From Gemmatimonadota bacterium (GTDB lineage: Bacteria > Gemmatimonadota > Gemmatimonadetes > Longimicrobiales > Gaopeijiaceae), in assembly GCA_030428885.1 (NCBI GenBank), contig JAUIEJ010000006.1:186001-250000 (forward strand): DNA of 64,000 nt. Direction: 5' to 3'. Positions 15,097-30,164 of this stretch are shown one piece after another (within the stretch, counting starts at the first letter, position 1; every line of letters starts with the position of its first letter). Both the position numbers and the translations under genes were made by a program. The notes under the pieces were generated by a model. It was not told where the DNA came from and searched no databases. It saw only the letters and a program-made list of their open reading frames with translations.

Positions 15097-17748
15097 TCAT
15101 CGCGCGGGACGCTGATCGCCGCGGTCGGAGAGCGCGATGCCAGCGAGACCGATGCTCAGGACCGTGAACACGGTGATCCATCCACTCAGCCCCCACCAGG
15201 CCGGTTCGAGCGAGACCGGCGCGAACTTCAGGGAATAAAACACGAACCCCGCAATGACGTAGGCGAGAAACCCGACTTCGGCGATGACCCAGACGGACAC
15301 GACGCCGACCGGTATGCCGAAGCTCAGGAACGAGACGGCCTGGTGTCCCCCCACCGTCGACTCGAGGAACGCGACGAGTACCACCGTGGCGAAGGCGCCC
15401 ACCCATCGAACGGGAAGAGCGCGCGTGAGGATCGAATACGAGAAGACCACCACGAGAGCACGGGCGATCGCATCGAACCCGTTTCCAAACAAGACCGCCA
15501 ACGTCGGTCGGAACCCGAGTATGGCCAGCCACCGTGGTCCCTGGTCGATCCCACCCGCGACTCCGCCTGCCCACAGCTCCGCGGTCCAGACGTCGATGTA
15601 GTAAAACAGTCCACACGAGATCCCGGCCAACACACCAACGGACAGGGAACGGGCGACCGGTTCGTTTCGCAGCCGGCCCCGCAGGACTCTCGCCCATGCA
15701 ACGAGCGTCCTCGGCGATCTCCGGCGAACGGTGGGCTCCAGTGCGACATAGAAGAGAGCCACCACGAATCCGATGAACGGGACCTGAGCGAGGTTCGCCG
15801 CCGATGTACCGCGCGCATCGGAGAGCGGATGGCTGACCTGACCGACCAGCAGCGCCCACTGGCCCAGGGCCAGCCCTGAAGCGATCGCCGCAGTCTTGGC
15901 CGTCCCCGTCCAGTCGGTGCTCTGCCTCCGCAACGTCGTGAACAGGGAGGCGGCGGCCACAATCGCGAAAGCGGCCACGAGAACCAGGTTGACCACCAGA
16001 CCCGACGTGGCTGCGACGCGTCGTTCGGTCCTTTCCCGTGCCAGGTCGGGTGGCAGCCCTCTCGAAAAGTAGACGACTCGTCTGCCGTGTACGGCGGCCT
16101 CCACCCGCTCCACGAGCCCATCACGGTCTCGCCGCCAACCCCAGACATCGTCCATCACGCCCGGTGGAGGCCTGGCCTCGGCGGGGGCCAATTCCTGGGC
16201 GTCGACGCCCCCGAGCCTCATGACCTCCTGGAGCGGATCGAGCGGGATACCCGATCGGGACGTTTCGATCGCGTGGTCTCCCTGGAGGTAGACGAGTTCA
16301 CCCGCCTGGTTGAAGATCGCGACCAGAACCTGCGGAGGTGGCGCAGTGGCCGGCAGGTAGACCGAGAGATCCGCAGCCGGATCCAGAACCGATTGCTGGT
16401 AGCTCGACCGGTACGGAGCGTGCTCCTCCCGATACCAGAACAGCGGCCCGATCCCCCCGTCCTCGGTAAGGTCTTCGAGGAACCCGTGGTAGGACGGGAC
16501 ACCGGATCCCGCCGCATACCCGAGCGACCGGAGCGCCCCGACGGCGCTCTCGACGAGCTCCGCGGGATGCCGCGCGGAGGGTCCCAGCGGGATGAGTCCC
16601 GCCGTGGCCGAGGCAACGAACACCCCGGCGAGCCCCAGAATCATGCCCACCGCTTTCACCCCCCCCGAAGCGGTGCCCGACGACTCCCAACCCTCCGCAC
16701 CCGCGTCGGCCACCAGGCCGGGAGAAGGCGTGGCCCTGGCCTCGACGGCGGCGCCCAGGGCGTCTCCGTCCGGCAGGAGTTCCACGAAGTGCAGGGCGGA
16801 CTCGGGTCTCCGACGGGGATCGAACGCGAGACAGGCCGCAACGGCTCGATCGAGCGACGGGTCGATACCGGGAACGATGCTCGACAACGTCGGAACTCGC
16901 CCCTGCTCACGAACCGTGAGGGCGCGAACTCGATCAGAAGGAGAAAACACCGGCTCACCTGTGGCCGCCTCATGGAGGACCAGCCCCAGTGCGTACAGAT
17001 CGGAACGGGGGTCGCTCATTCCGTCGGGAACGAGCTGTTCCGGCGCCATGTAGCTCGGTGTCCCGTGCTGCACACCTCCCCCCCCTTCGTCCTTGAGGAT
17101 GGCGACCCCGAAGTCCGTGATTCGGGCCCTGCCTCGCCGGTCGATGAGGATGTTTCCTGGTTTGAGGTCCCGGTGCACCACACCCTGAGCGTGTGCGGAG
17201 GCCAACCCCACGGCCAGTTCACGCGCGAGGTGGACCACACGATCGGTCGGCAGGGAGCCCACCCGCGACAGGAGCGTCGCAAGGTCTTCACCGTCGACGT
17301 ATTCCATCGTCAGGAACCGTTGGCCTTCGTGATCCCCTACGTCATGGACGCGGCAGACGGCCGGATGTGTGATGCGACGGGCCAGGCGGACTTCACGAAC
17401 CATCGCCGCTTCCATCGCCCGGTGGGATCGGATGAGCCGCTTCAGGGCCACCGACTCCCCGAGGACCTCGTCGCGAACGCGATACACCTCCCCCATGCCA
17501 CCCCGACCGATGGGTTCCAGAATCGTGTACCGGTTTGCGAACCGCTCACCGACCTCCAGGGGAGGGAGGACTACCCGAGGCGTTGGTTCGTCGGCGTGGA
17601 ACGCCAGAACAGCGCGGACCTCCGCGATGAGCTCCGGGTCACCCCCACATTCGGCCGCAACGTACGCGTCCCTCTCCTCTGCGGGGCGCTCCAGAGCCGC
17701 GAGGAAGACGGCCTTGGCCCGGCGGTGCCGGGCGCTCAGCTCCTCCAC
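15097..17748 (-). CDS. Ser/Thr protein kinase with polytopic membrane C-terminus
   Basis: This 883-residue protein is translated from a GTG inside the end of the sigma-factor gene (13-base overlap), so the pair is coupled. Residues 1-60 are helical (RHRRAKAVFLAALERPAEERDAYV), the usual lead-in of this kinase group. The kinase domain spans about 75-335, with GRGGMGEVY, the Lys in VALKRL, HRDLKPGN, DFGVAI and MAPEQL; all catalytic residues are intact. One helix near 390 leads to an extracytoplasmic segment of roughly 200 residues, followed by about eight membrane helices to the end. The layout suggests an envelope sensor kinase acting with the co-encoded sigma factor. The polytopic part matches no family I can name. 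Confidence 0.87.
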   Translation of the reverse strand: MEELSARHRRAKAVFLAALERPAEERDAYVAAECGGDPELIAEVRAVLAFHADEPTPRVVLPPLEVGERFANRYTILEPIGRGGMGEVYRVRDEVLGESVALKRLIRSHRAMEAAMVREVRLARRITHPAVCRVHDVGDHEGQRFLTMEYVDGEDLATLLSRVGSLPTDRVVHLARELAVGLASAHAQGVVHRDLKPGNILIDRRGRARITDFGVAILKDEGGGGVQHGTPSYMAPEQLVPDGMSDPRSDLYALGLVLHEAATGEPVFSPSDRVRALTVREQGRVPTLSSIVPGIDPSLDRAVAACLAFDPRRRPESALHFVELLPDGDALGAAVEARATPSPGLVADAGAEGWESSGTASGGVKAVGMILGLAGVFVASATAGLIPLGPSARHPAELVESAVGALRSLGYAAGSGVPSYHGFLEDLTEDGGIGPLFWYREEHAPYRSSYQQSVLDPAADLSVYLPATAPPPQVLVAIFNQAGELVYLQGDHAIETSRSGIPLDPLQEVMRLGGVDAQELAPAEARPPPGVMDDVWGWRRDRDGLVERVEAAVHGRRVVYFSRGLPPDLARERTERRVAATSGLVVNLVLVAAFAIVAAASLFTTLRRQSTDWTGTAKTAAIASGLALGQWALLVGQVSHPLSDARGTSAANLAQVPFIGFVVALFYVALEPTVRRRSPRTLVAWARVLRGRLRNEPVARSLSVGVLAGISCGLFYYIDVWTAELWAGGVAGGIDQGPRWLAILGFRPTLAVLFGNGFDAIARALVVVFSYSILTRALPVRWVGAFATVVLVAFLESTVGGHQAVSFLSFGIPVGVVSVWVIAEVGFLAYVIAGFVFYSLKFAPVSLEPAWWGLSGWITVFTVLSIGLAGIALSDRGDQRPAR

Positions 17749-18332
17749 GCCGATGCCAGTCGGTGCTTCAGCCAGGCCCGGGCATGGGTCCAGTCTCCCT
17801 CCACCGTGCGGCGGGAGACCCCAAGCGTCTCGGCGATCTCCGCCACCTTCAGGCCGACGAAGCACCGGAGTTCGACGACCTGCGCCTGTCGAGGGTCGAC
17901 ACCGCGCAGCGCATCGAGCGCCTGATCGAGGTCGAGAAGAAGCTCCGGGGACAGCTCCGACGAGATGTCGAGCTGGCAGGCATCCTCGTGGAGGGTCACA
18001 CGGTCGATCCCCCCTCCGCGCTTGCGGCGTTGGCGTCTCCGGGCGTGATCGACCAGTACCTGGCGCATGGCGCGTCCAGCCACGCCGAAGAAGTGGCGGC
18101 GACCCGTCCAGTTCGCCCCGAGCTGGCCTGCGAGCTTGAGGTAGGCCTCGTGGACGATCTCGGTGGCCTGGAGCGTGTGGGTCCCTCGCTCCCGCCGCAG
18201 ATGAGCCCCCGCGAGGACCCGCAACTCCTCGTACACGAGTGGAAGAATCCGGTCCGCTGCCTCTTCCGGCGAAAGATCTTCAGCCAACCCGCGAAGAAGC
18301 TGCGTCACCTCGGACTGCGCCGCCTCGGCCAC
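17736..18332 (-). CDS. ECF-like RNA polymerase sigma factor
   Basis: This 198-residue sigma factor belongs to the ECF-like group with the LVYEELRVLAGAHLRRER, LQATEIVHEAYLKLAG and RRHFFGVAGRAMRQVLVDHARRR signatures in region 2. Region 4 carries VVELRCFVGLKVAEIAETLGVSRRTVEGDW. I chose the GTG at 18332, which has GGAG 7 bases upstream; the longer frame toward 18629 crosses the divergent promoter region. The co-encoded membrane kinase downstream probably controls it, as in known sigma/kinase pairs. Confidence 0.88.
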   Translation of the reverse strand: MAEAAQSEVTQLLRGLAEDLSPEEAADRILPLVYEELRVLAGAHLRRERGTHTLQATEIVHEAYLKLAGQLGANWTGRRHFFGVAGRAMRQVLVDHARRRQRRKRGGGIDRVTLHEDACQLDISSELSPELLLDLDQALDALRGVDPRQAQVVELRCFVGLKVAEIAETLGVSRRTVEGDWTHARAWLKHRLASAWRS

Positions 18333-18508
18333 AGTGATGCTCCGTGTGAGGAGACCATGAACACCGACGGATGCTACGGGCGGAGAGTGGGGAAAGCCAG
18401 TCCGGTGAACGCCATGGTTGCGGGTTCCCGCTCGGTCCGACGCACGAGGGGGTGAGGGACCCGACCCGGCGTCCCTCCTCGATTCGATGCGCAGCCAGGA
18501 GCACAACC

Positions 18509-19639
18509 ATGAAGCTCGATAGAAACCGGACCCAGGCCATCTCCCACCTGATGGCCGTCGCCATCCTTCTTCCTCTCGGTACGGCGGCGTGCCACGACGA
18601 AGACCCCGCGGCACCGCAGCTCCCCACACTTCGGGACCAGATCACTCGAGCGGTCGACGAAGCGATCGGATCCGATCTTCCCGGGGTCCAGTTGAAGGTG
18701 CTCGGACCCGGGACGGACCTGGAGTACTCGGCCGGCACGGCCAATCTCGCGACTTCCAAAGCGATGGGCCTGGGCCAGCCGTTCTTTGCCGCCAGCACCG
18801 GCAAGATGTTCGTGGCGGCAGCGGCGGCCATGCTCGTGCAGGACGGTGTCCTGAGCCTCGACGGGACGCTCGCCGATCTACTTCCCGAGTCTGTCGGCCT
18901 CATTCCGGGCGCTGACGGGATCACGCTCCGGCATCTGCTCCAGCAGACCAGCGGGATCATCGACGTGCTGAACGAGATTCCGGGCATCGCCGATCTCATC
19001 GCCGAGAACCCTGGCACGGTCTGGACGAACGAGGACCTCGCCTCGTTGGCGGCTGGACTTCCGCTCCATTTCGAGCCTGGGAGTGCCTGGCGGTACTCGA
19101 ACACGAACTACATCCTCGCGTCCTTGATTCTGGAGCGCGTGACCGGCCAGGACTACGCCGAGGTCTTGCGGGGCCGGATCTTCGAGCCCCTCGGGATGGC
19201 GTCCACGCTGACATCGAACCACGGTGCGTTGGCAGCGGAACCGGTTCACGGGTACCTGATCGACGACGAGGGCCCCATCGACGCCACGGAAGTCGCCCTC
19301 TTGTGGGAGGTCGGCTCCGGGGGTCAGTGGACGACCGTAGATGACCTGACTCGATACCTCCACGCGCTCGCCACGTCCGACACCGTGTTCGACGATGGAC
19401 TCCGCGATCTGATCCTCTCCACGTCGTCGGTCTTCCAATACGGCCTCGGCGTGTTCGTCGTTGAGACGCCGTTCGGTCCAATGGTGGGTCACGGCGGTCT
19501 GTCCATGGGCTACTCCACCACAACGGGGTATTTCGTCGACCACGGCGTCTCCATCGTCCTGTTCGGCAACGCACAGGGTCGGACCCCGATCACCGAGGAT
19601 CTCTTCCTGGCCGTCCGGGATCTGGTCTTCGGCGCTTGA
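18509..19639 (+). CDS. Beta-lactamase-fold serine hydrolase (class C/DD-peptidase-like)
   Basis: This is a 376-residue exported protein. The signal ends near GTAAC, a weak lipobox. The serine beta-lactamase/penicillin-binding fold shows all three motifs: S-x-x-K as STGK near residue 92, Y-x-N as YSN near 198, and H-G-G near 330 (GHGGLSMGY). It would cleave peptides, esters or beta-lactams in the periplasm; family members are mostly peptidases or esterases rather than resistance enzymes. ATG 18509 has AGGAG 8 bases upstream. It is divergent from the sigma factor and followed by a second hydrolase 77 bases away. Confidence 0.85.
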   Translation: MKLDRNRTQAISHLMAVAILLPLGTAACHDEDPAAPQLPTLRDQITRAVDEAIGSDLPGVQLKVLGPGTDLEYSAGTANLATSKAMGLGQPFFAASTGKMFVAAAAAMLVQDGVLSLDGTLADLLPESVGLIPGADGITLRHLLQQTSGIIDVLNEIPGIADLIAENPGTVWTNEDLASLAAGLPLHFEPGSAWRYSNTNYILASLILERVTGQDYAEVLRGRIFEPLGMASTLTSNHGALAAEPVHGYLIDDEGPIDATEVALLWEVGSGGQWTTVDDLTRYLHALATSDTVFDDGLRDLILSTSSVFQYGLGVFVVETPFGPMVGHGGLSMGYSTTTGYFVDHGVSIVLFGNAQGRTPITEDLFLAVRDLVFGA

Positions 19640-22828: not shown

Positions 22829-22996
22829 GGGGGGCACGATACGACGCCGTTCGGCGCCGCGCTCGGGCGGGCCCGATCCCAGGCGCCGGGGACCCGCCGA
22901 CGGTGGGTGAGCGGATTCCGTCTCGTTCTGCGCCTCGGTGAAATGGAGACCCGCCGCGAGGGCGGGGTTCATCACCCGTGAGGACGGAGAGGCGAC

Positions 22997-23776
22997 ATGG
23001 AGTCCCCTACACCCTCTGCCGCGCTCGAGGAGGTTCTGAGCGGCGAGATCCTGCGCATGTACCAGGAGATCGTCGAAGACCCCGCCGCGGAGTTCCACTT
23101 CTTCCACGGCCGGGAGGCGGCGGAACGATTCGGGTACGACCCGGCCGAACTCGACACGGTGCCGGCGGGGGCCCTGGCCTCGTTCGCCGGGGTGGGGAAT
23201 CCCCACGAGCGGGCCCACCTCCAGCCCGGCGAAACGGTGCTGGACCTGGGCAGCGGCGCGGGCCTCGACGCCGTGCTGGCGTCGCGTCGCGTGGGGCCGT
23301 CCGGGCGGGTCATCGGCGTCGACATGAACCCGGTGATGTGCCGCACCGCCGAAGCCCACGTGGCCCTGGACGGCGGCGTCATGGAGTGCCATCAGGCCCG
23401 GATGGAGGAACTGCCGCTGCCCGATGCTTCGGTCGACGTGGTGATCTCCAACGGAGTCCTCAATCTCTCCTTCCGGAAGCGGCGCGTGATGGAGGAGATG
23501 CATCGGGTGCTCCGCCCCGGGGGCCGCATGTCCATCACCGACATCGTCAGCGCCAAGCAGTTGTCCCAGTCCATCGTCAACGACCCCAAGCTCTGGGCCT
23601 CCTGAATCGGAGGGGCTCTCCTGGAAGGAGAGGTGTTTCGTCTGCTCGAGGAGACGGGGTTCTCCCGGGTGAAGACGGCCGTGGTTCCGGGATTCCGGTT
23701 CCGGAAGCAGGGCACCCAGAACGCCGCGGAGTCGTACGGCGTGAAGGCGGTGATGATCACGGCCGAACGGGCCTGA
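22997..23776 (+). CDS. ArsM-like SAM-dependent methyltransferase, probable selenoprotein (in-frame UGA = Sec203)
   Basis: The frame from ATG 22997 (GGAGAGG upstream) runs 202 codons to TGA at 23603-23605, then stays open in the same frame for 56 more codons to TGA 23774-23776. The downstream part is the expected end of the same domain (IGGALLEGEVFRLLEETGF up to KAVMITAERA). The SAM-binding motif is VLDLGSGAGLDAVL (81-94), with GVDMNP at 107-112. In ArsM-like enzymes the segment after NDPKLWAS carries a conserved Cys, exactly where the UGA stands. A hairpin begins 11 bases after the UGA. Two other arsenic-binding Cys positions look substituted (AGVGNP, ISNGVLN), so the substrate is probably not arsenite. 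The alternative is a nonsense mutation or sequencing error leaving a truncated gene. Confidence 0.75.
23603..23632 (+). promoter_or_regulatory. UGA codon with bacterial SECIS-like hairpin
   Basis: The TGA is at 23603-23605. CTCTCCT (23616-23622) and AGGAGAG (23626-23632) pair perfectly around loop GGA (or a 6-bp stem with loop TGGAA). The apical loop starts 18 bases after the UGA and has G in its first two positions, as bacterial SECIS elements require. Confidence 0.55.
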
Positions 23777-23836
23777 TTCGGCAGGGGGTAGCGCACCGGG
23801 TCGCGTGTGGCGCGGGTTCGTCGGTATCATCGCCCC

Positions 23837-24406
23837 ATGTCCGATCCCGGCGCCGTCACACGGATTCTGTCGCAGATGGAGAGAGGCGATCCCGAAGCCC
23901 TGGATCGCCTCCTCCCCCTGGTCTACGACGACCTCAAGACCATCGCCCGCCGCCTCATGCGCAGCGAGCGGGACGGGCACACGCTGAATCCCACGGCGGT
24001 GGTCCACGAAGCGTACATGAAGCTCGCCGGCCTCCAGGAGGTGGAGTGGCAGGGCCGGGCCCATTTCTTCGGAGCCGCCGCTTCGGCCATGCGCCGCATC
24101 CTGGTGAGCTACGCCCGGGCCCGGAACGCCGCCAAGCGCGGCGCGGGGGAGGTGCCGGCTTCCCTGGACGAGGTGGTGGTGGCCGCCCACGAACGGCCGG
24201 GAGAGCTCATCGAACTCGATGAGGCCCTGCAGCGTCTCGGAGAGATCGCCCCCCGACAGGTGCGGGTGGTGGAGTGCCGCTTCTTCGCCGGCATGGACCA
24301 CGAGGCCACGGCGGTGGCCCTGGGCGTGTCCAACGCCACCGTGCGCCGCGATTGGACCCGGGCACGGGCCTGGCTGAACCGGGAACTGGGCGCGGGCTCC
24401 GCTTGA
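23837..24406 (+). CDS. ECF-like RNA polymerase sigma factor
   Basis: This 189-residue protein has the same family signatures as the one at 17736: LVYDDLKTIARRLMRSER, LNPTAVVHEAYMKLAG and AHFFGAAASAMRRILVSYAR in region 2, and VVECRFFAGMDHEATAVALGVSNATVRRDW in region 4. I chose ATG 23837, which opens the conserved part; the ATG-less extension upstream is not needed. Unlike the other two sigma genes here it has no kinase next to it. It follows the methyltransferase by 60 bases on the same strand, so it might be co-transcribed with it. Confidence 0.87.
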   Translation: MSDPGAVTRILSQMERGDPEALDRLLPLVYDDLKTIARRLMRSERDGHTLNPTAVVHEAYMKLAGLQEVEWQGRAHFFGAAASAMRRILVSYARARNAAKRGAGEVPASLDEVVVAAHERPGELIELDEALQRLGEIAPRQVRVVECRFFAGMDHEATAVALGVSNATVRRDWTRARAWLNRELGAGSA

Positions 24407-24462: not shown

Positions 24463-24738
24463 ATGGACCACCGCATCCACTTTCTCGTCGCCGGCGAGGA
24501 CAAGGCGCGCTACGAATCCCAGGCCGCACACGAGGGACTGTCCCTCGGGGCCTGGCTACGGGAGGCGGCCGAGGAACGCTACCGAGCCTCCCGGGCCCGG
24601 GAACCGTTCCGGACGCCCGAACAACTCGACGTGTTCTTCGGCGCCTGCGACGATCGGGAAACCGATGCGGAGCCCGACTGGGTCGATCAGCGGCGCGTCC
24701 TCGCCTCGTCACGCTCGGACGGCCTGAGCCCCACGTGA
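24463..24738 (+). CDS. Putative antitoxin of a VapBC-type module
   Basis: This 91-residue acidic protein has GGAGG before its ATG. The N-terminal half looks like a ribbon-helix-helix DNA-binding unit (DHRIHFLVAGEDKARYESQAA, then SLGAWLREAAEERYR split by a turn). The C-terminal half is charged and probably wraps the toxin. Its stop overlaps the start of a PIN-domain gene (GTGA), the normal order for type II toxin-antitoxin operons. Family assignment rests mainly on this context. Confidence 0.7.
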   Translation: MDHRIHFLVAGEDKARYESQAAHEGLSLGAWLREAAEERYRASRAREPFRTPEQLDVFFGACDDRETDAEPDWVDQRRVLASSRSDGLSPT

Positions 24739-25118
24739 CCTTCGTCGACACCAACGTGGTGATGTACGCCGTGGGCGGGTCGCACCCCCTCCGGGAGAAG
24801 GCCCGGGAGGTGTTCCGCGCGGCGCTTCGGGAGGGGACGCCTCTCTGCACCTCGGCGGAAACGCTCCAGGAACTGCTCCACGTCTATCTCGCGGCCGGCC
24901 GCCTGGCGACCCTCGACGCGGCCCTCGAGCTCGTGGAGCGGGCGATCCCCACCGTGTGGTCGGTGGACCCGGACGACGTCCGCCTGGCCCGCACCCTCGT
25001 CGACCGGCACCCCGGCCTGTCCGCCCGGGACCTGGTACACCGGGCGTGCTGCGTGCGCCGGGAGGTGACGTCGGTGCGCACCTTCGATCGGGGGCTGGCG
25101 GCGGCGTTCGGAGAGTAG
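24735..25118 (+). CDS. PIN-domain ribonuclease toxin, VapC-like
   Basis: This is a 127-residue PIN-domain protein. The first catalytic Asp is D5 (FVDTNVVMYA), followed by acidic residues E42/E46 (AETLQELLH), D98 (SARDLVHRA) and D117 (TFDRGLA), which match the four-acid Mg2+ site. VapC toxins cut tRNA or rRNA. The GTG start overlaps the antitoxin stop, so the pair is coupled. Confidence 0.83.
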   Translation: MTFVDTNVVMYAVGGSHPLREKAREVFRAALREGTPLCTSAETLQELLHVYLAAGRLATLDAALELVERAIPTVWSVDPDDVRLARTLVDRHPGLSARDLVHRACCVRREVTSVRTFDRGLAAAFGE

Positions 25119-26373: not shown

Positions 26374-26850
26374 TCAGCCTAGAATGCTATCCAGGGCTTC
26401 CGCAACCTCGCGGTGGAGCTGCTCCAGCTCCCGGAACTTCTGGATCCGATGCCTCCGCATGCGATCCTCCTGACCCACCACCGACGGCGCGTTCTGAAGC
26501 TCCTCGATGCGCTTCTTCAAACGATCGAAGGTCATGGCGATGCGGGGCAGGCAGTCGCGAAGGTCGACCAGGGCGCTCTTGAGCTCCGCCACCTGGGCCG
26601 ACGACATCTCGTCGAGGGTGCTGGGCTGGTAGAACTCGAACCCCGAGCGGATCCCGGCGGTCCATCCGTCGAGGATGACCGTGAGGCCCTGGAGGTCGTC
26701 CCAGTTCTCCGTGATCTGGCGATTCATCCGGTCCATGAGGGCGGCGCAGACATCGTCGTCGGTCTGGGCCGCGAGGGCCTGGGGCGAAGCCAGGGCGAAG
26801 GTCGCCAGCAGGGCGACGGCGAAGGCGGTGGATCGAGGGGCGAGGCGCAT
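26374..26850 (-). CDS. Exported helical/coiled-coil protein, unknown function
   Basis: This 158-residue protein has a signal peptide (FAVALLATFALASPQALA) followed by an almost wholly helical chain. Its C-terminal half shows heptad-like patterning (FDRLKKRIEELQNAP, RIQKFRELEQLHREVAEAL). Two Cys (DVCAALMD, RDCLPRIA) may pair in the periplasm. It is the first gene of the operon with the OmpA protein, so a periplasmic role at the cell wall is plausible. No family is recognised. Confidence 0.65.
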   Translation of the reverse strand: MRLAPRSTAFAVALLATFALASPQALAAQTDDDVCAALMDRMNRQITENWDDLQGLTVILDGWTAGIRSGFEFYQPSTLDEMSSAQVAELKSALVDLRDCLPRIAMTFDRLKKRIEELQNAPSVVGQEDRMRRHRIQKFRELEQLHREVAEALDSILG

Positions 26851-26974
26851 GGTGAACGCTCCGGTCGGAAGAAGGGTGCGGGACGGGTCCTCACTCCTCC
26901 TTGTGCAGAACCGGGGCGAAGGGGACCACGGACCGGTTGCGCCGGCACCGTCGTACGGCCGATCGTGGAGTCCC

Positions 26975-29593
26975 ATGCCCACCCCCCCACCCGATTGGGC
27001 CGACGTTCGGGCCCTCTTCGAAGCGGCCCTCGAACGCGAGGAACCGGAGCGGTCGGCGTTCCTCGACGAAGCGTGCGGCCTCCACGGACCCCTCCGCTCT
27101 GAGGTCGACGCGCTCCTGGCGGCGGCCGGGGACGACACGTTTCTGGGGACTCCGCTCAGGGAGCAGGGCCTCGACGCCCTTCGAGAGGAGGCGGAAGGAC
27201 CCTCCCCCGGAACCCGCGTGGGCCCCTTCCGCCTCGGATCACTGCTGGGCCGGGGTGGCATGGGTCACGTCTACGCGGCCCACCGCGACGACGGGGCCTA
27301 CGACCAACAGGTGGCGGTGAAACTGCTCCGCACCCGGTTCCCCACCGACGAACTCCTGCGCCGGTTCGCCCGGGAGCGGGAGATCCTGGCGTCGCTCCAT
27401 CATCCAGGCATCGCCCACATCCTCGACGGAGGCTCGTCGGCGGTAGGCCCGTGGCTCGCCATGGAGTTCGTGGACGGCCGCCCGCTCCCCGACCACTGCC
27501 GGGAGCAGCGGCTCACCCTGGCCCAACGGGTCGAGCTCTTCGCTGCGGTGTGCGATGCCGTGGACCACGCCCACCGCCGCGGGATCGTGCACCGGGACCT
27601 CAAACCGTCCAACGTTCTGGTCACGCCCGAGGGCCAGCCGAAGCTTCTCGACTTCGGCATCGCCGCGATCCTGGGACCGGGCGGCGATCGGGGCCTCACC
27701 CGCACCGGGGTGCTTCCCCACACGCCCGAGTACGCCAGCCCCGAACAGATCCGGGGGGAAACGGCCACCACGGCCTCCGACGTCTGGGCCCTGGGCGCCC
27801 TGTTGTACGAACTGCTCACGGATCGCCGGCCCTACGAAAGCCGCTCCGCCTCGCCCGCCGAGCGTGAACGGCAACGGGCCGTGCTCCCCCGGCGTCCCAG
27901 CGACGTGACCCGACGCCGGGAGTTGCGGGGCGACCTGGACGCGGTGGTGGGAAAGGCCCTGCACCCCGATCCCGAGCGCCGGTATTCGTCGGCAGCGGCT
28001 CTGGCCGACGATCTCCGTCGTCACCTGGCTCATCGACCGGTGTCGGCCCGCCCCGACGGCGTGCTCTACCGGCTGCGCGCCTGGTCTCGCAGGAATCCGG
28101 TCGTGGCCGGTGCCGCGGCTCTTCTCGTGACCACCGTCGCGGTGGGAACCCTCACGACCCTGCAACAGGCCCGCCGGGCCGAGGCCGGTCTCGCCAGCGC
28201 CCGGGGGCTCGCCCGCTCCCTCCTCATCGATCTCGACCGGGCCCTGGAAGATCTGCCCGAGTCGACCCCGGTGCGGGCCCGTATGGTGACCCAGGCCCTC
28301 ACATCGCTGGAGGAGCTCTCCGACGACGTGAACGCCGATTCGGAATTGCTGCTCCTGGCCGCCGACGCCTACGACCGCATCGGCTCCATCCAGGGAAATC
28401 CACTCTACACGAACCTGGGCGATCTGGCGGCAGCGCGAGACAGCCACGAGCGGGCCCTGGAGATACGTAACGGCCTGGAGGCCCGGGATCCGTCCCATCC
28501 GGCCATCCGACAAGCCCTGGGCACCAGCTACCTTCACATGGCCGTGCTGGATCGAGCCGAGGGCGACGTGGCGGCGTCGACCGCGTGGGCGGAACGGGCC
28601 CTGGAGGCCCTGGAGCCGTTGCGCGACACCCGGGGGGCCGAGGCCCGGTTCGTCCTCACCCTGGAGGCGGCCCGAACCATCCTGGGGGCCAACGAAATCC
28701 GGCGCGGCGAGTTCGATCGGGGCCTGGAGGCCCTGGGCGCCGCCGTCGTCGGGCTCGAGGCCCTGGCTCCCCCGGAAGCGGCCGACGTGGAGCTGGGGTT
28801 GGCGCTGTGGGAGGCGTACGGCCATCAGGTCGACGGATGGCGCTTCAGCAGTCGGTATCAGCCGGCGCTGGACGTGCTGGAAGACCGGGCGTGCCCCATG
28901 CTCGAGCGGCTCGCGGACGCGTATCCCCGCCGGGCGTCGGTACTCTGGGGACTCCAGTCCTGCTGGGACTACCTGGGTACGCTTCAGGAGAAGCTCTACC
29001 TGGACGATCCCGAGGCCACCTTCCTCCGGGCCCTGGGCCGGGCCGAGGAGCTGGTGGCGCTGGACCCCGCCAACGAACGGGCCAACGCGGCCGTCACCAC
29101 GGTGCTCGTCTCCCTGGGGCGCCGCGTATTCGCCGAGGGCCGGGTCGCCGAGGGCGAGGCCTATCTGGCCCGAGCGGTGGAGATCCGGCGGGGTCTGGAA
29201 GCGGCCAACCCGTCCAACACGCTCTGGACGGCGCGGTTGGCCAGCGTACTCCGGGAGTACTGCCGGGGAGAGCTCCACAACGACCGGCTGGAGGCGGCCC
29301 TTCCGTGGTGCCTGGAGGCCGTGGACACCCACGTCCGGCACGTCACCCGGCAGCGGGACGACGCCATCGCCCAGGTCACCCTGGCTTACGCCCTGGGGCA
29401 CACGGGTCGGGTCTACCGGGCGCTGGCCGCAGCGGGCCCGGGGCCCGACGCCGAGGCCCACCGGGAGCGGGCGGTGGAGTTCTACATCCGGGCTCTGGCG
29501 GCCTACGACCGTGCCGGTTCGTTCGGAGACAACCCGGACTGGGAGGTCGACCCCGACGCCGTCCGCGCCGAACTGGCCGCGTTGGAGGGGTGA
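26975..29593 (+). CDS. Ser/Thr protein kinase with TPR-like sensor region
   Basis: This 872-residue protein starts at an ATG preceded by GGAGTCCC. Residues 1-60 are the helical lead-in seen in the 15097 kinase. The kinase domain spans about 80-360, with GRGGMGHVY, VAVKLL, HRDLKPSN, DFGIAAI and YASPEQI; all catalytic residues are intact. A membrane helix lies at about 375-395 (VVAGAAALLVTTVAVGTL). The 470-residue C-terminal part is all-alpha with tetratricopeptide-like repeats (ALEIRNGLEARDPSHPAIRQ). It is the first gene of an operon with a sigma factor and a second kinase. Such proteins are thought to phosphorylate or sequester the partner sigma factor. Confidence 0.9.
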   Translation: MPTPPPDWADVRALFEAALEREEPERSAFLDEACGLHGPLRSEVDALLAAAGDDTFLGTPLREQGLDALREEAEGPSPGTRVGPFRLGSLLGRGGMGHVYAAHRDDGAYDQQVAVKLLRTRFPTDELLRRFAREREILASLHHPGIAHILDGGSSAVGPWLAMEFVDGRPLPDHCREQRLTLAQRVELFAAVCDAVDHAHRRGIVHRDLKPSNVLVTPEGQPKLLDFGIAAILGPGGDRGLTRTGVLPHTPEYASPEQIRGETATTASDVWALGALLYELLTDRRPYESRSASPAERERQRAVLPRRPSDVTRRRELRGDLDAVVGKALHPDPERRYSSAAALADDLRRHLAHRPVSARPDGVLYRLRAWSRRNPVVAGAAALLVTTVAVGTLTTLQQARRAEAGLASARGLARSLLIDLDRALEDLPESTPVRARMVTQALTSLEELSDDVNADSELLLLAADAYDRIGSIQGNPLYTNLGDLAAARDSHERALEIRNGLEARDPSHPAIRQALGTSYLHMAVLDRAEGDVAASTAWAERALEALEPLRDTRGAEARFVLTLEAARTILGANEIRRGEFDRGLEALGAAVVGLEALAPPEAADVELGLALWEAYGHQVDGWRFSSRYQPALDVLEDRACPMLERLADAYPRRASVLWGLQSCWDYLGTLQEKLYLDDPEATFLRALGRAEELVALDPANERANAAVTTVLVSLGRRVFAEGRVAEGEAYLARAVEIRRGLEAANPSNTLWTARLASVLREYCRGELHNDRLEAALPWCLEAVDTHVRHVTRQRDDAIAQVTLAYALGHTGRVYRALAAAGPGPDAEAHRERAVEFYIRALAAYDRAGSFGDNPDWEVDPDAVRAELAALEG

Positions 29594-29597
29594 CGGC

Positions 29598-30164
29598 GTG
29601 AACGAGCCCATGCCGGTGACCACCCTTCTCCACGCCTGGAAAGACGGCGACGACGGGGCGCTGGACGCCCTGGTCCCTCTCGTCTACGACGAACTCAAAC
29701 GTCTGGCCGGGGGCCATCTTCGACGAGAGCGGGAAGGGCACACCCTGAGCTCCACCGCCCTGGTCCACGAGGCATGGATGAACCTGGCCCGGGGTCCGGC
29801 GCCGCGGCTCGAAGACCGCGTGCACTTCTACGCCATCGCTTCCCGGGTCATGCGTCGGGTCCTGGTCTGGCACGCGCGGCGAAGGAACGCCGCGAAGCGG
29901 GGCGGGGGAACGCCCCCCCTGCCCCTGGAAGCGGCCGGGCACGTGGCGGTGACGTCCGACCACGACATCCTGGCTCTGGACGAGGCCATGGGTGAGTTGG
30001 AGCAGATGGATGAGCGCCTCTGCCGGGTCGTGGAATGCCGCCATTTCGGCGGCCTCAACGTCCAGGAGACCGCCACGGCCCTGGGTGTTTCGGCCACCAC
30101 CGTGAAGCGGGACTGGACGACGGCCCGGGCCTGGCTGAAGCGGCGGCTGGAGCCCGGGCGGTGA
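29598..30164 (+). CDS. ECF-like RNA polymerase sigma factor
   Basis: This 188-residue sigma factor has LVYDELKRLAGGHLRRER, LSSTALVHEAWMNLAR and HFYAIASRVMRRVLVWHARRR in region 2, and VVECRHFGGLNVQETATALGVSATTVKRDW in region 4. I use GTG 29598, which has GGAGGGG upstream; an ATG at 29610 is possible. It lies between two kinase genes, 4 bases after one stop and overlapping the next start (TGATG), so all three are co-translated. Confidence 0.88.
   Translation: MNEPMPVTTLLHAWKDGDDGALDALVPLVYDELKRLAGGHLRREREGHTLSSTALVHEAWMNLARGPAPRLEDRVHFYAIASRVMRRVLVWHARRRNAAKRGGGTPPLPLEAAGHVAVTSDHDILALDEAMGELEQMDERLCRVVECRHFGGLNVQETATALGVSATTVKRDWTTARAWLKRRLEPGR

Follow-up and report, generated by a model that had tools for sequence, protein, structure and literature searches.

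Does the in-frame TGA at 23603-23605 end a gene for an ArsM-like methyltransferase, or is it read as selenocysteine (Sec), and what would a Sec residue do in such an enzyme? In the window, i.e., the whole stretch of 64,000 nucleotides that was analysed, the frame starts with an ATG at 22997, meets this TGA and continues for 56 further codons to a TGA at 23774-23776. Under translation table 11, the product would stop after residue 202. The locus has the following features.

22986..22992, + strand: Shine-Dalgarno-like GGAGAGG, 4 nt 5' of the ATG, read from the sequence
22997..23776, + strand: coding sequence of the Sec-containing ArsM-like methyltransferase (259 residues, Sec203, stop TGA 23774-23776)
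23603..23605, + strand: Sec codon UGA; the column is Cys in non-TGA homologues
23616..23632, + strand: bSECIS hairpin with a 7-bp stem and a GGA loop

The first-pass annotation had proposed that the frame continues for 56 codons past the TGA with the rest of the domain, and this was confirmed by the open reading frame, by Pfam and by AlphaFold. The 56 codons complete the methyltransferase domain: residues 77-221 of the read-through protein correspond to Pfam Methyltransf_31, as a single methyltransferase domain, and the AlphaFold model is a single, confidently predicted domain that extends to residue 259 (mean pLDDT, 95), with a helix and strands C-terminal to residue 203. Moreover, pN/pS in the subfamily of orthologues was 0.29 5' of the UGA and 0.36 3' of the hairpin, indicating purifying selection on both sides.

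The conservation of the codon was then assessed in two scans. The orthologue search among 394 genomes of the class identified 41 carriers (48-77% identity), and each orthologue copy reaching the codon had one TGA there. The second scan covered genomes of 84,980 species and yielded 41 loci, mostly from Gemmatimonadota, with TGA at the codon in 41/41; the labels outside this phylum were those of MAGs named Eisenbacteria (two), Bipolaricaulota and KSB1. The two scans overlap and many loci were met in both, and the resulting 82 loci that cover the codon, which represent 51 distinct 75-base segments, all carry TGA. None of these 82 loci represents a Cys form of the subfamily. In the non-TGA homologues, the column was Cys wherever it was covered. 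This bears out the earlier assignment of the UGA to the conserved Cys of a W-A-x-C-x-G-G-A segment, a position that corresponds to C224 of CmArsM. The homologue alignment suggested at first pass for detecting Cys/UGA exchange showed that Sec and Cys alternate between groups.

Downstream of the UGA, a stem formed by 23616-23622 and 23626-23632 closes a GGA loop (23623-23625), and the UGA-to-loop spacing is 17 nt. The 43-nt segment had a folding energy of -17.1 kcal/mol (z, -2.25 versus shuffles). The published description of bSECIS elements gives a loop of 3-9 nt, a stem of 4-16 bp, G in the first two loop bases, a spacing of 16-37 nt and an MFE of -7.5 kcal/mol or lower (PMC13188914), and the hairpin agrees with it throughout. 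Synonymous sites were frozen in the hairpin: Ala207 was GCT in 45 of 48 sequences (background, about 9.5%) and Gly211 was GGA in 45 of 45 (background, about 17%); no other column of the gene shows a codon bias as strong as that of these two. In 24 sequences of both Sec groups (the subfamily and group B, described below), 92% of the stem cells paired and 18 cells were changed on both sides; the covariation score was reached by 0 of 500 shuffles and was lost when the partner strand was slid. The hairpin, which had initially been described as fitting bacterial SECIS rules, was thus supported by covariation as well. Two divergent members (L077 and L079) paired poorly in the hairpin register used. 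No Rfam family matched the hairpin, and all matches elsewhere were sub-threshold.

A search of the window's genome (5.39 Mb, 95% complete) for selA, selB, selC and selD had been proposed together with the annotation, and all four genes were present, located outside the window. They comprise selA (519 bits), selB (317 bits, in a 644-residue frame), the tRNA-Sec gene selC (74.5 bits, anticodon UCA) and selD (355 bits). Among the genomes of the class, selA was found in 40 of the 41 carriers versus 250 of the 353 others (Fisher p 4.7e-5, a value that shared ancestry makes optimistic). The draft genome of carrier G207 gave no selA match but has a tRNA-Sec; for the genomes G040, G348 and G043, no tRNA-Sec exceeded the cut-off among the candidates that were scored, which were a part of the total. 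In group C1, the Cys form described below, 5 of 8 genomes were without a selA match. The selD gene (L017:1501-2460) itself contains HGAGUACKLG when read through an in-frame UGA and, judging by this motif, probably encodes a second selenoprotein of the window's genome.

Thus, the sel genes, the invariant TGA, the hairpin and the selection acting after the UGA strongly support the selenoprotein predicted by the first-pass annotation, and we place the probability that UGA 23603 encodes selenocysteine at about 97%; the same reading very probably applies in dozens of related bacteria. SelB and tRNA-Sec would decode the codon, directed by the downstream hairpin. That the TGA is instead a genuine stop codon, or arose by a sequencing error or by mutation in a pseudogene, giving a protein that ends at residue 202, has in its favor that table 11 ends the frame there, but this reading retains almost no probability and was rejected given the invariance of the TGA in 51 distinct segments, the downstream pN/pS and the covarying hairpin; moreover, none of the contrary outcomes named beforehand (absent Sec machinery, TGC or TGT at 23603 in relatives, homologues terminating at this position) was found. 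Reading of the UGA as Trp was likewise rejected, since the non-TGA homologues carry Cys and a tRNA-Sec is present.

We then turned to the protein itself. The closest solved folds were ArsM structures (6cx6, Z 26.1, rmsd 2.2 over 221 residues; 4fr0, Z 25.6), the next non-ArsM fold having a Z of 21.8. In the alignment with CmArsM, U203 corresponds to C224, V66 to C72 and G153 to C174, and Sec is very probably coded at a substrate-binding position. The arsenite-binding residues C72/C174/C224 of ArsM are therefore Val/Gly/Sec here, in agreement with the earlier remark that the two other arsenic-site Cys had been lost, and the required set of three Cys is incomplete. Compared to CmArsM and human AS3MT (4fr0, 6cx6 and 8xt7), the window's protein has the same fold, with Sec in place of Cys at the C224-type position, but lacks C72, C174 and the C-terminal extension. 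All three positions are Cys in three canonical ArsM homologues of this class, and the window's genome also encodes a canonical three-Cys ArsM (364.8 bits; motifs LGCGNP, SNC and WVGC). In CmArsM, the first methylation depends on all three Cys and the second on C174 and C224 (PMC6950371). Because these Cys are missing, the standard ArsM mechanism is unlikely to operate here, and the loss of the two arsenite-binding residues from the sequence argues against ordinary arsenite methylation.

The annotation had also spoken of a new type of selenoprotein, and this part was not supported. The catalogue of established selenoproteins already includes a Sec arsenite methyltransferase with the motif UxxG (WP_011987699.1; Fomenko 2007, per PMC13188914), and that of predicted ones includes three ArsM-like fusion proteins with UxxG (PMC13188914); the fusion families (Haft and Tolstoy 2025) are known here through NCBIfam and PMC13188914. 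However, no NCBIfam model (June 2026) reached its cut-off on the window's protein. NF008823 (arsenite methyltransferase ArsM) gave 209 bits with the protein and 201.8 in the genome search versus a cut-off of 263; NF047649 gave 186 versus 460, NF041537 gave 193 versus 510 and NF041536 gave 170 versus 575. The window's protein shares Sec in UxxG with NF008823/WP_011987699.1, here as U203-I-G-G at the CmArsM C224 position, but is set apart by the model score and has Val and Gly for C72 and C174. It likewise resembles the families methyltransferase/UXPK-star (NF047649), ArsM/AhpD (NF041537) and ArsM/DUF2284 (NF041536), which have an ArsM-like domain with Sec in UxxG; these, however, add a second domain or motif with a further Sec, whereas the window's protein consists of the methyltransferase domain only. 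The protein does not represent a novel kind; what is well supported is a new subfamily, namely, a distinct Sec-only clade among the sequences compared. The phylum has seen little selenoprotein work, and a full-text literature search found no paper devoted to Gemmatimonadota selenoproteins.

In the tree, the subfamily formed one side of a branch with support of 100/96. Group B, with the motif U-I-A-G-A, TGA in all members and 38-46% identity to the query, was sister to the Cys-containing group C1 (support, 96/84). Since the TGA-containing group B and the Cys-containing group C1 are sisters and the subfamily is all TGA, Sec and Cys are exchanged at this site between groups, with Sec fixed within the subfamily. 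Groups B and C1 also replace the other two arsenic-site Cys (C72 by Val, Thr or Met; C174 by Gly), indicating that the loss of these two Cys is shared by a larger branch. The known fusion families may be part of this branch. Most members of group B (L058-L068) have a matching hairpin after the TGA, that of L063 being weaker, and this hairpin shows a C-G to G-C swap relative to the subfamily; the four members scanned fell under the NCBIfam cut-offs. Group C1 (L050-L057) has the motif W-A-E-C-I/V-V-G-A and additional conserved Cys (columns 42 and 193). Within the subfamily, two extra Cys (columns 115 and 131) occur in 36 of 42 members; they are rare elsewhere and missing in divergent members. 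Two copies look damaged or misassembled: the KSB1-labelled one (L123) has a short N-terminal piece joined directly to the later portion, and L124 has its N-terminal portion in a different reading frame.

We predict a stand-alone, SAM-dependent methyltransferase with the ArsM fold, one metalloid-binding Cys of which is replaced by Sec203. We infer that the soft, easily ionised selenolate of Sec203 would capture a soft substrate beside the methyl group of SAM, perhaps with a His partner (candidates, H34, H37 and H70), and that the methyl group would then pass from SAM to the captured substrate. Our best guess is that a soft substrate, i.e., a trivalent arsenical, another metalloid or a chalcogen, is methylated in this SAM-dependent manner.

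A trivalent or already methylated arsenical is a tentative first guess at this substrate. It could be methylated by a mechanism with a single chalcogen ligand, in which As(III) or methylarsenite would be bound by Sec203 and His, along the lines suggested for the one-Cys TtArsM; we consider this to be somewhat short of an even chance. Consistent with such a mechanism, ArsM is the best fold match, and TtArsM, from Thermus, methylates arsenite with one Cys, His having been proposed as ligands (PMC8649762). H34 and H70 are conserved in the subfamily (H70 in 39 of 40 members), but H70 is Phe in group B. By analogy with TtArsM, these conserved His leave room for a site made of Sec plus His, alongside the first-pass suggestion that Sec might suffice for the chemistry. 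Compared by its description (PMC8649762), TtArsM resembles the window's protein in lacking a full three-Cys site, but it retains Cys at a different position (C77), with no Sec reported. Also speaking against an arsenical are the canonical three-Cys ArsM already encoded in the same genome and the absence of any recognised arsenic gene next to the methyltransferase gene.

A reduced species of sulfur, selenium or tellurium comes second and is the less likely guess; Sec203 would then activate or bind sulfide, a thiol or persulfide, selenide or a tellurium species for methylation. This reading draws on the gene neighbourhoods, which were inspected at 41 loci (up to 6 kb on each side), in the window and at 20 further loci (19 from the sister groups and one divergent member). 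In four soil loci from close relatives (L107, L111, L126 and L127), an MFS transporter gene lies downstream, and in at least three of them a rhodanese/metallo-beta-lactamase protein is encoded between the two. Upstream, L107, L111 and L114 carry a LysR-like gene; the gene of a distant member (L147) is likewise flanked by LysR and MFS genes. Moreover, a second small methyltransferase-like gene is found directly downstream in L096, L114, L117 and L122. The neighbours in the soil clade are at most hints of sulfur or of an exported product. However, no general partner gene emerged across the inspected neighbourhoods; there were only small clusters, and most loci, including the window, are without them.

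Selenocysteine is mostly a redox residue. It is conceivable, although rather doubtful, that the members of the subfamily are Sec-obligate methyltransferases in which a lone active-site selenolate, with no partner Cys, binds a substrate that is not arsenite and methylates it. If so, Sec would gain a non-redox, substrate-capturing role and the Gemmatimonadota would gain a new metalloid or chalcogen methylation reaction. A Sec-containing methyltransferase with no partner Cys makes the contribution of selenium to methyl transfer directly testable, with the Cys relatives as natural controls. Moreover, ArsM-like genes that look "truncated" in metagenomes may in some cases encode selenoproteins, and arsenite methylation need not be their function.

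Inspection of the list of open reading frames by eye provided two minor observations on the window. At 24463-25118, a small antitoxin-like gene overlaps a PIN-domain-like gene (24735-25118), perhaps as a VapBC-type pair. Several genes resembling those for ECF sigma factors and Ser/Thr kinases are clustered at 15097-18629, 23807-24406 and 26675-30164, and they include two pairs of a kinase and a sigma gene.
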